Source: Gammaproteobacteria bacterium (GTDB taxonomy: Bacteria > Pseudomonadota > Gammaproteobacteria > SZUA-229). From it: a stretch of 37,191 bases of DNA. This document shows, one piece after another, positions 20,470-26,932 of this stretch; position 1 is the stretch's first letter; each line of letters opens with the position of its first letter. Below the pieces are notes generated by a model. It was not told the origin of the DNA, did not search any database, and worked only from the letters and a program-made list of their open reading frames with translations. Position numbers and translations under genes: made by a program. The DNA lies in the NCBI GenBank assembly GCA_030595185.1, contig JAUVDT010000010.1, positions 1 through 37,191 of the forward strand, given 5' to 3'.

Positions 20470-21453
20470 TTACACAGTTTGGTAGTACAGATTTTGCGGA
20501 TGATTCGCTTGAGCAAAGAAGTACCAACGCTCAAAAATCAAGCCTGCATATTGAACAACAAAAGCAGCAACCAATAGACCACTGTCTGCTGTGTCTAAAC
20601 CCATTGCTAATAAGATCACAGGAATTGGGAATACCAATACCATGAAAATGTATTTAACAGATTTCAAAAAGGCTTTCGTTTTTCCGTGGAAGTACTCACG
20701 TGTATTGTAAGAACCACCCTGCATACCCATCGCTTTTTGCTGAATTTGCGGATGGCGAATACCAATCGCAGATTGCATTGACGATTTATGCTTGATACGA
20801 GAATTACGGAACAAAGACGCTAAGCGAGTCAGTAAAACAAGAACCGTTAAGATAATTGCCCAAACCGTGAAGAACTTAGTCATGTCTGCCGCATCATAAA
20901 AACTACTGAACGCCGCAGCCAGGGTGAAACCTGATGCAGTACCGAACAAAGCGTAATTAATAATCGTAAATGGCGTTGCCCATTCTTGCAAAAACTTAAT
21001 GCAAGCGTAGATCATGCCCGTGCAAACAAACAATATAAATGCTGCAATCGCACCAATACTACCGGCAACTAACAAGCTATAACTGAAGTTATTACCTGTC
21101 GCACTGCTGTAGATAATGCCGTCTAAACCAAACCAGTGCATCACACCGTAAATGGTAATCATCAGCATCATAAATGGTAATGCGATAACTTCACGAGATA
21201 ACCATGAAGTACGCCATTTAGTTGCCGAACGCCAGGCGCGTTCTGGATGACCTAAGTGAAAGACAGATGCGATCAAACCACCCATCATTAAAATAAGTGC
21301 AAACAAACTACCTAACCCAAAAAAGTTAGTGTCTGACATTGAAGGCAATAAATTCAGTTCAGTATAAGCCTGAGCTGAAAAAAGAGCCAAAAACAAACCC
21401 TGACCAGCACCGATCAAAGTCGTTAAAAATATTACTGAAAACGCAGGATGCAT
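20470..21453 (-). CDS. soeC: DmsC/NrfD-type molybdoenzyme membrane anchor subunit (SoeC-like)
   Basis: Polytopic membrane protein, HPAFSVIFLTTLIGAGQGLFLAL, FHLGHPERAWRSATKWRTSWLSREVIALPFM. AGGAG Shine-Dalgarno precedes the ATG at 21453. Confidence 0.75.
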   Translation of the reverse strand: MHPAFSVIFLTTLIGAGQGLFLALFSAQAYTELNLLPSMSDTNFFGLGSLFALILMMGGLIASVFHLGHPERAWRSATKWRTSWLSREVIALPFMMLMITIYGVMHWFGLDGIIYSSATGNNFSYSLLVAGSIGAIAAFILFVCTGMIYACIKFLQEWATPFTIINYALFGTASGFTLAAAFSSFYDAADMTKFFTVWAIILTVLVLLTRLASLFRNSRIKHKSSMQSAIGIRHPQIQQKAMGMQGGSYNTREYFHGKTKAFLKSVKYIFMVLVFPIPVILLAMGLDTADSGLLVAAFVVQYAGLIFERWYFFAQANHPQNLYYQTV

Positions 21454-21562
21454 AGCATTACTCCTGAGATTAAAAATTATGTTGGCCATTTATATTTAAA
21501 CAAACAATCCAACTACTATTTATTTTAGCTTCTTCATTCTCATTATTATGAGATTTAAAGTA

Positions 21563-21617
21563 AGGGGAAGTTTTTAAATCGCTTCCCCTCACCCTAGCCC
21601 TCTCCCAAAGGAGAGGG
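21563..21617. repeat. Two adjacent short palindromes (REP-like) upstream of soeC
   Basis: AGGGGAAG/CTTCCCCT (21563-21570/21582-21589) and CCCTCTCC-CAAA-GGAGAGGG (21598-21617). Confidence 0.6.
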
Positions 21618-21741
21618 GACTAAGTCAAAAACTAAAACTTAAATCTTGAAACCATTTACCAAACTTTCTAGAACGAAGGATCAACTCTCAAAAACTGTCT
21701 CAAAGAAACTACCTCTAAGAGGCCATCTCTAAGAAACGAGA

Positions 21742-21900
21742 GATTTTGTTCGCGAGCAAGGCGCGGGAATAGTTTGAGCGCGGAGCGTACACGTAGGCAG
21801 CTCTCACACATCCCTGTGTTTCACTGCACCTGAACATCCCTGTTCAATGTACGTGAGCACTCAAACTATTTCTGCAACGCCGCTCCCGGACAAAAGATCC
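21742..21900. repeat. Long imperfect inverted repeat enclosing two GGGA-loop hairpins, soeB-soeC intergenic
   Basis: TTTTGT..GAGC paired with GCTC..ACAAAA; AATAGTTTGAG (21768-21778) paired with CTCAAACTATT (21860-21870); inner hairpins ACACA-TCCC-TGTGT (21806-21819) and TGAACA-TCCC-TGTTCA (21831-21846). Confidence 0.7.
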
Positions 21901-21907
21901 ATTTCGA

Positions 21908-22633
21908 CTACCAGCTGGTTGAATCATCCAGAGTCGGAACATCCAATGGTTCAACTGAATGTTCTTTGTTTAGTGGGTTGTCCGCACGCTGCAACTCATC
22001 TTCATGATAATGCACTTTCGTCTTACGACGTGGCAAGTAATGATTCGATGGATTCGTTCCCCACTCAGGCATCAACTGGTAACCCGCGTTATCGCGAATT
22101 GCTTCTGATACTTCTGACTCTGGATCATGTACGTCACCAAACAAACGTGCGCTTGTTGGGCAAGCCATAACACAGGCTGGTTTACGTTCATTTTCTGGTA
22201 AAGATTCGTCATAAATACGATCCACACACAAAGTACATTTTTTCATGACTTTCTGATGTTCGTCGAATTCACGCGCACCGTATGGGCAAGCCCATGAGCA
22301 GTATTTACAACCGATACATTTGTCGTAATTTACTAATACGATACCGTCTTCATCACGCTTGAAGCTTGCACCTGTTGGGCAAACTGGAACACAAGGCGCA
22401 TCTTCACAATGTAGGCAAGACTTAGGAAAGTGCAGTGTTTCCGTTTTAGGGAAAGTACCAATTTCATAAGTTTGTACACGGTTAAAGAAAGTACCTGTTG
22501 GGTCTTTGCTGTACGGATTTTCATCCGTCATAGCACCAGCAGGGCCTGACGTGTTCCATTCTTTACATGAAGTTACACACGCGTGACAACCTACACAAAC
22601 ATTTAAATCAATAACAAGGGCTAACTGTGTCAT
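21908..22633 (-). CDS. soeB: 4Fe-4S ferredoxin subunit of molybdoenzyme (DmsB-type, SoeB-like)
   Basis: CVGCHACVTSCKEWN, CLHCEDAPCVPVCPTGAS, CIGCKYCSWACPYGARE, CTLCVDRI...CVMACP: four cysteine clusters. Confidence 0.85.
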   Translation of the reverse strand: MTQLALVIDLNVCVGCHACVTSCKEWNTSGPAGAMTDENPYSKDPTGTFFNRVQTYEIGTFPKTETLHFPKSCLHCEDAPCVPVCPTGASFKRDEDGIVLVNYDKCIGCKYCSWACPYGAREFDEHQKVMKKCTLCVDRIYDESLPENERKPACVMACPTSARLFGDVHDPESEVSEAIRDNAGYQLMPEWGTNPSNHYLPRRKTKVHYHEDELQRADNPLNKEHSVEPLDVPTLDDSTSW

Positions 22634-25534
22634 TTATTTAGCTCCTTTTTTAGCAAATTTTCCGGCGAAGTATCGAACGATCGAACGACGTTTTTCCATG
22701 CCCGGGAATAATGGCAATGTGTCAAATGTCGGGAAAGTTTCTTTTGGCTCGTCATCTTCTGCTTTATATACACGTACACGTACATCGTACCAACCCGCCT
22801 GACCTGTAATCGGGTCAGAGTTTGATACGTGTTCGCCACATTCATTTTTCGGTAGTTCTTCTGAGATCAGGTGATTCAGTAAGAAACCTTTATTTGATTC
22901 GTTGGCACTCTTATCCAGATTCCACGCACCACTAGCCTTACCGATTGAGTTCCAGGTCCAGATTGTTCCTGGCTCAACAGCTTCTGAATAACGCGCTAAA
23001 CAACGCACTTTACCGTGCATTGATTCAGCCCACATCCAGCCACCGTCTTCAATACCCTGCGCTTGTGCAGTTGAAGGGTGAATGTGCATGTAGTTATGCG
23101 TATGGATCTGACGTAACCAGGCGTTCTGCGAATCCCACGAATGGTACATCGCCATTGGACGTTGAGTTAGGGCATTTAATGGATATTTATGTTTATCCGT
23201 TAATTGCGACTCTAACGTCTCGCTGTAGAACGGTAGCGGATCAAAGTGCTCTCTTACGCGTTCACGCAAATGCTCTGGTGGTTGTTTACCTTTACGTTTG
23301 CCTTCTGCTGCTAAACGGAACTGCTGCAATACTTCAGAATAAATGTGAACATTTATCGGTTCTGCATAACGCGTTAAACTGTGATCTTGTGCCCAGGTTA
23401 AGTAACCTTTATTCCAGTTACGCATGTACTGGTAAGACTTCGGCAGGTGATGATGATAAACGCAATCGTTCTTCTCATACATTTCCCACTGACTTGGGTT
23501 CGGCTCACCTTTCATGAACTTCTCGCCGCCTTTACCACGCCAGCCAGATAAGAAACCGATACCAGAACCTGGTGCTGTTTCAAAGTTCACAACGAAATCA
23601 GGATAGTCACGGTATTTACGTGAACCATCTTTGTTAGTAAACGCCGGTAAACCTAAACGCGAACCTAACTCAATAATTACTTCCTGGAATGGTTTGCAAT
23701 CACCTTTTGGTGGTACAACCGGAATACGTACTGAATCAACCGGGCCTTCAAATTCTGAGATCGGACGATCAAGCATCGACATTACATCGTGACGCTCAAG
23801 GTAAGTTGTATCTGGTAGAACCAAGTCAGCAAACGCAACCGTTTCAGATTGGAACGCATCACAAACGATTAAGAATGGAATCTTGAATTCACCGTTCTCT
23901 TCTTTGTCGTTCAACATCTTACGCACTTCAGACGTATTCATGCTTGAGTTCCAGGCCATGTTCGCCATGAAGATCATCAGTGTATCAATTTTGTACGGGT
24001 CGCCGCGCCATGCGTTAGTGATCGCATTGTGCATTAAGCCGTGAGCCGATAATGGGAATTCCCATGAAAACGCTTTATCGATACGAACCGGTTCATTGTT
24101 TTCATCAACAAACAAATCATCTGGACTTGCTGGCCAACCCAAAGGCATACCATTTAATGGTGTGTTTGGCTTAACATCGTCCGGGCTGTTTGGCGGCTTC
24201 GCGCAAGGCGGAATAGGACGAGGGAATGGCGCTTTATGGCGGAAACCACCTGGGCGGTCAATCGTACCTAACAATGTCATTACTATAGATAATGAACGAA
24301 TCGTTTGGAAACCGTTAGAGTGAGCTGCCAAACCACGCATTGCGTGGAAAGAAACAGGATTACCCGTTACGGTGTCATGGTCATTGCCCCAAACATCAGT
24401 CCAGGCGATCGGTAACTCAATTTTCTCATCACGAGCCACAATACCCATTTCATGCGCAAGGCGTGTAATGGTTTCAGCAGGAATACCTGTGATCGCCGCA
24501 GCCCATTCTGGCGTGTACTCTTCAACGCGTTCTTTCAATAACTGCATTGAAGACTTAACAGCCGTACCATTCTCTAATGTGTAAGAACCTAACAGGAACG
24601 GATCAGCACCTTTAGTGTGTGTGATAACCGGCTTGTTCTCGTTACGATCCCACCACAGTTTATTCTCAGGATCGAAGCAGCCTTCGCCAACTTCCAGTTC
24701 CTTGTTACGAATAAACATACCAAATTCATCGCTGTCTGGATCCTGGTTTACAAGTTCCGCAGCATTGGTGTATTGAACAAGGAACTCACGGTCATACAAA
24801 CCTTGAGCAATCAAAACATTGGTGATGGCTAGTAATAACGCACCATCAGTACCTGGCTTGATTGGAACCCACTCATCAGCAATCGCAGAGTAACCAGTAC
24901 GAACAGGGTTTACAGAGATGAAACGACCACCATTGCGCTTGAATTTAGACAAGGCAATTTTCATTGGATTTGAGTGATGATCTTCCGCTGTACCAATCAT
25001 TATGAACAGACGTGAACGCTCTAGATCTGGACCACCGAATTCCCAGAAAGAACCACCGATGGTGTAGATCATGCCGGTTGCCATGTTCACAGAACAGAAA
25101 CCACCGTGTGCCGCGTAGTTAGGTGTTCCAAACTGTTTAGCAAACATACCCGTTAGAGCCTGCATTTGGTCACGACCTGTGAACAATGCAAATTTCTTAG
25201 GATCTGTGCCGCGTAAATGACGTAGACGTTCTTCCATTACATCGAAAGCTTTGTCCCAGCTGATTTCTTCAAAATCACCAGCTCCACGTTCCGCGCCTTC
25301 TTTACGCATTAATGGCTTAGTTAAACGTGCAGGAGAATATTGCTTCATGATGCCCGAAGCACCTTTCGCACAGATTACACCTTTGTTTAATGGATGATCC
25401 GGATTACCCTGGATATAACGAACTTCGTTATCGCGCAAAGTAACTCGGATACCACAACGACAGGCACACATGTAACAGGTAGTGTTCTTTACCTCTGTGC
25501 GACCGTCACCAGCATTAGCAGTTGTCGTATTCAT
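22634..25534 (-). CDS. soeA: Molybdopterin oxidoreductase catalytic subunit (SoeA-like sulfite dehydrogenase candidate)
   Basis: N-terminal CYMCACRCGIRVTL...GVICAKG Fe-S motif, GGSFWEFGGPDLERSRLFIMIGTAEDHHSNP, PDTTYLERHDVMS. Operon with DmsB- and DmsC-type subunits. Subfamily assignment is by recall only. Confidence 0.7.
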   Translation of the reverse strand: MNTTTANAGDGRTEVKNTTCYMCACRCGIRVTLRDNEVRYIQGNPDHPLNKGVICAKGASGIMKQYSPARLTKPLMRKEGAERGAGDFEEISWDKAFDVMEERLRHLRGTDPKKFALFTGRDQMQALTGMFAKQFGTPNYAAHGGFCSVNMATGMIYTIGGSFWEFGGPDLERSRLFIMIGTAEDHHSNPMKIALSKFKRNGGRFISVNPVRTGYSAIADEWVPIKPGTDGALLLAITNVLIAQGLYDREFLVQYTNAAELVNQDPDSDEFGMFIRNKELEVGEGCFDPENKLWWDRNENKPVITHTKGADPFLLGSYTLENGTAVKSSMQLLKERVEEYTPEWAAAITGIPAETITRLAHEMGIVARDEKIELPIAWTDVWGNDHDTVTGNPVSFHAMRGLAAHSNGFQTIRSLSIVMTLLGTIDRPGGFRHKAPFPRPIPPCAKPPNSPDDVKPNTPLNGMPLGWPASPDDLFVDENNEPVRIDKAFSWEFPLSAHGLMHNAITNAWRGDPYKIDTLMIFMANMAWNSSMNTSEVRKMLNDKEENGEFKIPFLIVCDAFQSETVAFADLVLPDTTYLERHDVMSMLDRPISEFEGPVDSVRIPVVPPKGDCKPFQEVIIELGSRLGLPAFTNKDGSRKYRDYPDFVVNFETAPGSGIGFLSGWRGKGGEKFMKGEPNPSQWEMYEKNDCVYHHHLPKSYQYMRNWNKGYLTWAQDHSLTRYAEPINVHIYSEVLQQFRLAAEGKRKGKQPPEHLRERVREHFDPLPFYSETLESQLTDKHKYPLNALTQRPMAMYHSWDSQNAWLRQIHTHNYMHIHPSTAQAQGIEDGGWMWAESMHGKVRCLARYSEAVEPGTIWTWNSIGKASGAWNLDKSANESNKGFLLNHLISEELPKNECGEHVSNSDPITGQAGWYDVRVRVYKAEDDEPKETFPTFDTLPLFPGMEKRRSIVRYFAGKFAKKGAK

Positions 25535-25945: not shown

Positions 25946-26932
25946 ATGATTATGAATAAGCTCTCTGATAAATTTGGCCGACACATAGAATATCTGCGAC
26001 TTTCCGTCACCGATCGTTGCGACCTGCGCTGTACATACTGCATGCCTAAAGGCTTCAATGATTTTGAAGATGCTGACAACTTACTCAGCTTCGATGAAAT
26101 AGAGCGTGTTATTAAAGCCTTTACAGAAATGGGCACCAAACGTATTCGATTAACCGGTGGTGAACCACTGGTACGCAAAGGCATCGATGAGCTAGCCCAT
26201 CGACTGGCCGCTTTACCTGGTCTTGAAGATTTATCACTCAGCACCAACGCCACTCGCATGAGTAAATACGCTACCGATTTAAAAGCCGCTGGCATTCAAC
26301 GATTAAATGTTAGCCTCGATACATTAGACGCCGACAAATTCAAACAGCTAACGAGCGGCAAATTATCGAAAGTCATCGATGGTTTAATGGCGGCTAAAGA
26401 AGCTGGCTTCAAACCTATCAAAATTAATATGGTGGTCATGAAAGGCGTTAATGATATGGACGTTGAGGACATGCTCAATTTTTGTATTGAGCACGGCTTC
26501 ACTTTACGCTTTATCGAAACCATGCCTTTAGGTGATACAGGTCGTAATGCACAAGACCAGTACATTGATTTAAAAATAATCAAACAAAGACTGGCAGAAA
26601 AATTCGATTTAATTCCCGGCGTTATGCCTGGTGGCGGCCCGGCTCGATATATGAACGTAGCCGACACTGATATCAATATTGGTTTCATCACACCAATTTC
26701 CCAGCACTTTTGCGATACCTGCAACCGAGTTCGCTTATCGGCTGATGGCACCATCTATACTTGTCTGGGCCAGGAGCATCATTTAGCACTGCGCCCATTA
26801 TTGCGTGCTGGCTGTACAGATGAAGAATTGAAAGAAGCTATTCAAACTGCGGTTGATTTAAAACCAGAAAAACATGAGTTTAATGAGAAGCCGGAAAAGC
26901 TGGTTAGATTTATGTCTATGACGGGGGGCTAG
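25946..26932 (+). CDS. moaA: GTP 3',8-cyclase MoaA (molybdenum cofactor biosynthesis)
   Basis: Radical-SAM LSVTDRCDLRCTYCMPKG, IRLTGGEPLVRKG, second cluster FCDTCNRVRLSADGTIYTCLG, C-terminal GG. Confidence 0.96.
   Translation: MIMNKLSDKFGRHIEYLRLSVTDRCDLRCTYCMPKGFNDFEDADNLLSFDEIERVIKAFTEMGTKRIRLTGGEPLVRKGIDELAHRLAALPGLEDLSLSTNATRMSKYATDLKAAGIQRLNVSLDTLDADKFKQLTSGKLSKVIDGLMAAKEAGFKPIKINMVVMKGVNDMDVEDMLNFCIEHGFTLRFIETMPLGDTGRNAQDQYIDLKIIKQRLAEKFDLIPGVMPGGGPARYMNVADTDINIGFITPISQHFCDTCNRVRLSADGTIYTCLGQEHHLALRPLLRAGCTDEELKEAIQTAVDLKPEKHEFNEKPEKLVRFMSMTGG

Follow-up and report, generated by a model that had tools for sequence, protein, structure and literature searches.

The window analysed here is a 37,191-nt stretch of draft contig JAUVDT010000010.1, in which a soeB-like and a soeC-like gene are separated by a long inverted repeat enclosing two hairpins with GGGA loops. 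Is this an RNA device peculiar to the soe operon, or one copy of something more widespread? The first-pass annotation placed the repeat at 21742-21900, starting 7 nt past the soeB stop codon. The inverted repeat is real, and its 11-bp arm (AATAGTTTGAG/CTCAAACTATT) and both GGGA hairpins are present in the sequence and in the minus-strand minimum-free-energy fold, but those limits are too short: the full element occupies 21730-21910, with TA at each end, and its first TA lies inside the soeB stop codon TAG. The features referred to below are as follows.

22634-25534: soeA (ORF coordinates agree).
21908-22633, minus strand: soeB-like Fe-S subunit (Pfam Fer4_11), whose stop codon TAG holds the terminal TA of the element.
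21730-21910, minus strand: whole element, TA to TA, 181 bp (128 + 53).
21849-21910, minus strand: 5′ arm of the palindrome, pairing with the 3′ arm; ~80-94% in alignment with arm-only copies of relatives.
21875-21880, minus strand: side motif GCGTTG, 24 nt before the apex (ERIC: 17 and 26).
21849-21856, minus strand: 5′ side of the apical motif, TCACGTAC, near-invariant in alignment A1; position and motif as ERIC TCACTTAC.
21796-21848, minus strand: apical insert of 53 nt with both GGGA hairpins, missing at orthologous sites.
21831-21846, minus strand: hairpin TGAACAGGGATGTTCA (TGAACA-GGGA-TGTTCA) in the insert, from sequence and fold.
21806-21819, minus strand: hairpin ACACAGGGATGTGT (ACACA-GGGA-TGTGT) in the insert, from sequence and fold.
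21782-21795, minus strand: 3′ side of the apical motif, TACGTGTACGCTCC, near-invariant in alignment A1; ERIC counterpart GTAAGCTCC.
21756-21762, minus strand: side motif GCCTTGC, 19 nt after the apex (ERIC: 20).
21730-21795, minus strand: 3′ arm of the palindrome, pairing with the 5′ arm; ~80-94% in alignment with arm-only copies of relatives.
20470-21489, minus strand: soeC-like membrane anchor, DmsC family (Pfam PF04976), the next gene downstream.

The minus strand of the element folds at -70.6 kcal/mol (z -4.9; 0/200 shuffles as good) and the plus strand at -72.3 kcal/mol (z -6.7; no shuffle as good). BLAST with the element against 58 relatives gave matches in 21/58 genomes, nearly all consisting of query positions 8-59 and 112-168 as adjacent arms with the interior missing. 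Since the arms of relatives adjoin in this way, the window element is a 128-bp imperfect palindrome whose apex carries an insert of 53 nt. Removal of these 53 nt (21796-21848) turns the apex into CTCACGTAC-TACGTGTACGCTCCGCG, exactly that of relatives L013 and L015, and leaves 128 bp from TA to TA.

The insert is present at the soeB-soeC site only in the window's own genome (G000), five other genomes having the palindrome there without it. GGGA hairpins occur in none of the orthologous or paralogous arm elements inspected, and a search of the own genome, a 69% complete draft, revealed no further close copy of the insert. The two GGGA loops had been taken as a sign of selection on RNA structure, an argument that finds no support, the hairpins being private to this genome's copy; as a conserved feature the loops are ruled out, sitting as they do in an insert unique to one genome. 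The meaning of the structure, judged by these comparisons, lies in the arms, and the GGGA hairpins are probably secondary cargo. A soe-dedicated RNA regulator, in which the GGGA hairpins bind CsrA/RsmA or make GNRA-type contacts, is accordingly scarcely credible to us: both insert loops read ACAGGGAUGU, which we take to be close to the CsrA consensus, and Rfam RsmV matches the element below threshold (19 bits against a gathering score of 100), but the hairpins are missing at all orthologous sites, no CsrA gene (PF02599) was found in the own assembly (69% complete) and, in relatives, this loop is also found in other hairpins that have nothing to do with soe.

These other hairpins form a separate repeat with a CAGGGATG loop, often following CCCGAAGGG, seen in relatives (G015:C186:7918, L359; G029, L025) and once in the own genome (G000:C74:4247, L352). 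The insert's hairpin at 21806-21819 shares a 19-nt identity, GTGAAACACAGGGATGTGT, with the copy in G029 (L025). The double ACAGGGATGT pattern was found in one other genome of 40 searched, in a different family and with an unlike spacer, and ACAGGGATGT itself is far commoner than its backward control (30 genomes). Assignment of the window element to a known RNA family was rejected, all Rfam matches being subthreshold.

The arms, by contrast with the insert, recur. That the element might be a dispersed repeat had been offered as one option among several, and it was borne out: covariance model R1 detects at least 10 loci in the own genome, including one tandem pair, and is positive in 46/54 family genomes (models were calibrated on short random sequence). 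Covariation is strong, with double-sided changes at 25/38 consensus pairs in an alignment of 20 arm elements and a score of 0.385 against 0.169 for shuffled and at most 0.125 for slid alignments. The gap-pgk interval is the site of most of these 20 elements, and some follow groEL or soeB. The window's genome belongs to a gammaproteobacterial family other than Enterobacteriaceae and Vibrionaceae, and one element of that taxonomic family is identical to that in MAG JAQICG010000206.1; a plasmid or phage origin of the window element was rejected, no match being obtained.

The nearest described counterpart is ERIC (IRU, RU-1), which like the window element is an imperfect palindrome with TA ends, intergenic and multicopy. 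The ERIC consensus of Delihas measures 127 bp from TA to TA, against 128 bp for the window element without its insert, and carries GCGTT 26 and 17 nt before the apex TCACTTACTTATGTAAGCTCC and GCCTT 20 nt after it (PMC2759123). Without its insert the window element has GCGTT 24 nt before and GCCTTG 19 nt after its apex TCACGTACTACGTGTACGCTCC, so that the GCGTT/GCCTT side motifs are common to both at matching distances, as is the asymmetric TCAC/GCTCC apex (TCAC-NTAC-N-GTAN-GCTCC). A single base-pair swap separates the window apex TCACGTAC..GTACGCTCC from ERIC TCACTTAC..GTAAGCTCC, the apex stem being TTAC/GTAA in the former and GTAC/GTAC in the latter, while the other arm sequence is unalike; own-genome copy L036 has the ERIC apex letters, TCACTTACTT..GTAAGCTCC, with side motifs at 25 and 19 nt. 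The window copy also differs in its 53-nt insert and in a host outside Enterobacteriaceae and Vibrionaceae, the distribution of ERIC described to date (PMC10969869). Because the host range is different and the apex agrees only in part, we file it as ERIC-type rather than as ERIC. Model R2, built from 60 diverse sequences with ERIC excluded, matches the window element at 21732-21906 (97 bits, E 3e-29; sole match in the window) and, run against 16 kb, hits the E. coli ERIC precisely at the element (E 1.8e-4), a score that is not wholly independent since R2 includes enterobacterial non-ERIC copies (L075, L147, L194). ERIC goes undetected by R1, whose training set came only from the window's own family.

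Searched in species genomes, the exact apex pattern (TGCTCACGTACN{2,6}GTACGCTCCGC, 22 fixed bases) occurs in more than 119 stretches from many phyla, against ~0.15 expected by uniform-base arithmetic, with hosts including Mesorhizobium, Rickettsia, Listeria, Nitrospirae, Fulvivirga, Klebsiella and Pseudomonas. Nearly all matches are long palindromes with arms of their own. R1 aligns full-length to most of these loci, which were picked by their apex, so its scores on them are not independent; the same loci hold extra R1 matches without the exact pattern (e.g. L129:5740, L079:5512, L078:5960 and 6086). Of 81 loci, 11 have both side motifs, GCGTT ahead of the apex and GCCTTG behind it, against 0.0006 expected per locus from shuffled sequence, and many alphaproteobacterial copies lack exact side motifs. 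R2 is positive in 94/299 sampled Pseudomonadota genomes. Copies like the Klebsiella version are present in nearly all complete E. coli genomes, at a median of 4 places each; the K-12 copy (L194:4326-4424) lies unannotated between ffh and rpsP, in sense orientation. A 22-nt RNA containing the core, TTCGGTGCTCACGTACTTTTAG, was read from two Thalassospira loci (PMC6413936), so such elements can be transcribed; this small-RNA paper was the only relevant one found when open-access papers were searched for the core string.

Frames from those Rickettsia loci that carry the exact 22-base apex pattern gave NCBIfam matches to RPE3 (7e-24) and RPE5 (1e-20), the two RPE families compared here. R1 aligns to these loci over its full length; a difference is that RPEs also insert in frame inside genes. 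RPEs are described as Rickettsia-specific (PMC10969869, PMC2229807), and no earlier statement of an ERIC-RPE link was found in the open-access literature searched. On balance, we lean towards a single superfamily of mobile palindromes that would take in ERIC, RPE3, RPE5, the window element, the unannotated E. coli element 3′ of ffh, and palindromes without annotation in Mesorhizobium, Listeria, Nitrospirae and others. Retention of two asymmetric motifs (GCGTT/GCCTTG and TCAC/GCTCC) across phyla while the arms vary freely would imply a shared recognition factor, for which a transposase or an RNA-processing enzyme is the candidate. Such a common architecture would merge repeat families that have been treated as separate, and would supply a defined motif for finding the missing transposase. 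Two further repeats were compared. Correia/NEMIS of Neisseria has sizes of 107 and 155 bp, a 50-bp internal segment apart, together with TA ends and mRNA processing (PMC2229807), an analogy only, with no motif in common found. The printed sequence of YPAL (RU-2) of Yersinia contains a AAGGATGG hairpin and a ..CATGGATG.. segment (PMC2759123), reminiscent of the CAGGGATG loops of the insert; this is a lead only.

At the soeB-soeC site itself, a palindrome lies directly 3′ of soeB in 4/4 genomes of the genus and in G005 and G024 of another genus. The earlier description of an element that splits a compact soeABC operon is thus right for this genus and two relatives, while other family members have a short spacer or another palindrome there. 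That other palindrome (G008, G009, G018, G025 and G029; L203, L204, L208, L210 and L211) has GCGTT..GCCTTG side motifs and a GACA/CTCAC-type apex. In G017 the site has no palindrome and retains a small flanking stem, which looks like an internal loss; it offers no clean TA site, and no clean TA empty site was found for the window copy. Between congeners whose SoeB is ~95% identical, the arms of the element differ wholesale, although each arm pair is complementary and the flanks are alike, and the arms of the window copy resemble those of gap-pgk elements in other genera more than those of its G002 orthologue. Such differences suggest arm replacement, by template switching or conversion, so covariation alone is not to be read as selection on RNA.

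These arm differences bear on a rival account, namely that the element is a neutral, selfish MITE with ERIC-type structure and no function in the soe operon, where the 3′ end of a gene tolerates insertion and template switching keeps the arms complementary. Wholesale arm change between close relatives with kept flanks is what it would lead one to expect, as is L017 (G034), a single copy that looks like a hybrid of the two tandem elements found between gap and pgk in L015 (G030). Template switching would, however, erase the asymmetric side motifs and the apex, both of which survive, and the gap-pgk and soeB-soeC sites are retained across several genera. We regard this account as rather unlikely, though a genuine contender, and the positions of copies relative to genes pull in both directions.

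Mobility shows in G149: ~20 copies or more, nearly identical to one another and bounded by TAGGCC...GCCCTA, lie there in both orientations, and the control pattern gave 0. Near-identical, TA-flanked copies indicate that the family is mobile. A search of G149 by TIR pattern turned up no transposase sharing these ends, and its sole DDE_3 fragment has no such ends nearby. As terminal TA is not dominant over all old copies under the automatic end-finder, we restrict the claim of TA ends to the window copy and the recent copies. The recent G149 copies between tandem genes number 4 sense and 10 antisense, an absence of sense bias that suits a neutral element. Retained copies elsewhere (recent bursts excluded) are biased to sense 3′ positions, which does not: between tandem genes 36 are sense and 12 antisense (p = 0.0007, an optimistic value given simple ORF calls and a sample partly clustered by genus, with many Mesorhizobium). 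A further 30 lie between convergent and 7 between divergent gene pairs. In the cross-phylum set the distance from stop codon to core has its mode at 58-60 nt, where the stop codon meets the element end.

An intrinsic terminator or attenuator after soeB could also be suggested by the hairpin's stability and its place just 3′ of a stop codon, and by the favouring of convergent pairs among retained copies. This is very improbable: RNA of the window copy has no U run after the outer stem (...ACAAAAUCUCUC), the other strand is equally palindromic, and the element sits between co-oriented neighbours, e.g. gap-pgk and soeB-soeC.

The element has ERIC architecture and is multicopy, its relatives have moved recently, and retained copies show a sense bias. 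The reading that we consider likely is of an ERIC-type non-autonomous MITE at the TA of the soeB stop codon, which acquired its insert later and has been kept as a putative mRNA 3′ hairpin. A TA-targeting transposase acting in trans would have moved the element into the stop codon, and the 53-nt hairpin insert would then have been gained in the apical loop. Surviving copies would mostly be those directly 3′ of a gene in sense orientation. Co-transcribed with soeAB, the element would fold as a long RNA hairpin and might separate decay of the upstream soeB and soeA mRNA from that of the downstream soeC mRNA, by analogy with ERIC in Yersinia, which is reported to be co-transcribed and to have an orientation-dependent effect on the stability of upstream mRNA (PMC2229807). 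A role in soeAB:soeC stoichiometry or in 3′-end protection is possible, and the sense bias 3′ of genes fits it. For the window, a recurring element kept at soeB-soeC and gap-pgk sites takes the place of an operon-specific riboregulator; more widely, whether ERIC-type hairpins are merely tolerated or are selected as mRNA 3′ elements would become testable.

Two neighbouring features may be recorded. One is a CCCTCTCC/GGAGAGGG hairpin repeat in the gap from the element to soeC (21585-21619, minus strand); it resembles Rfam whalefall-1 below threshold (22.8 bits against a cut-off of 37), and G002, but not G001 or G003, has a similar one at the corresponding place. On the other side, a moaA-like molybdenum cofactor gene (25946-26932, plus strand; PF06463, radical SAM) adjoins the soeABC cluster divergently, SoeA being a molybdopterin enzyme.
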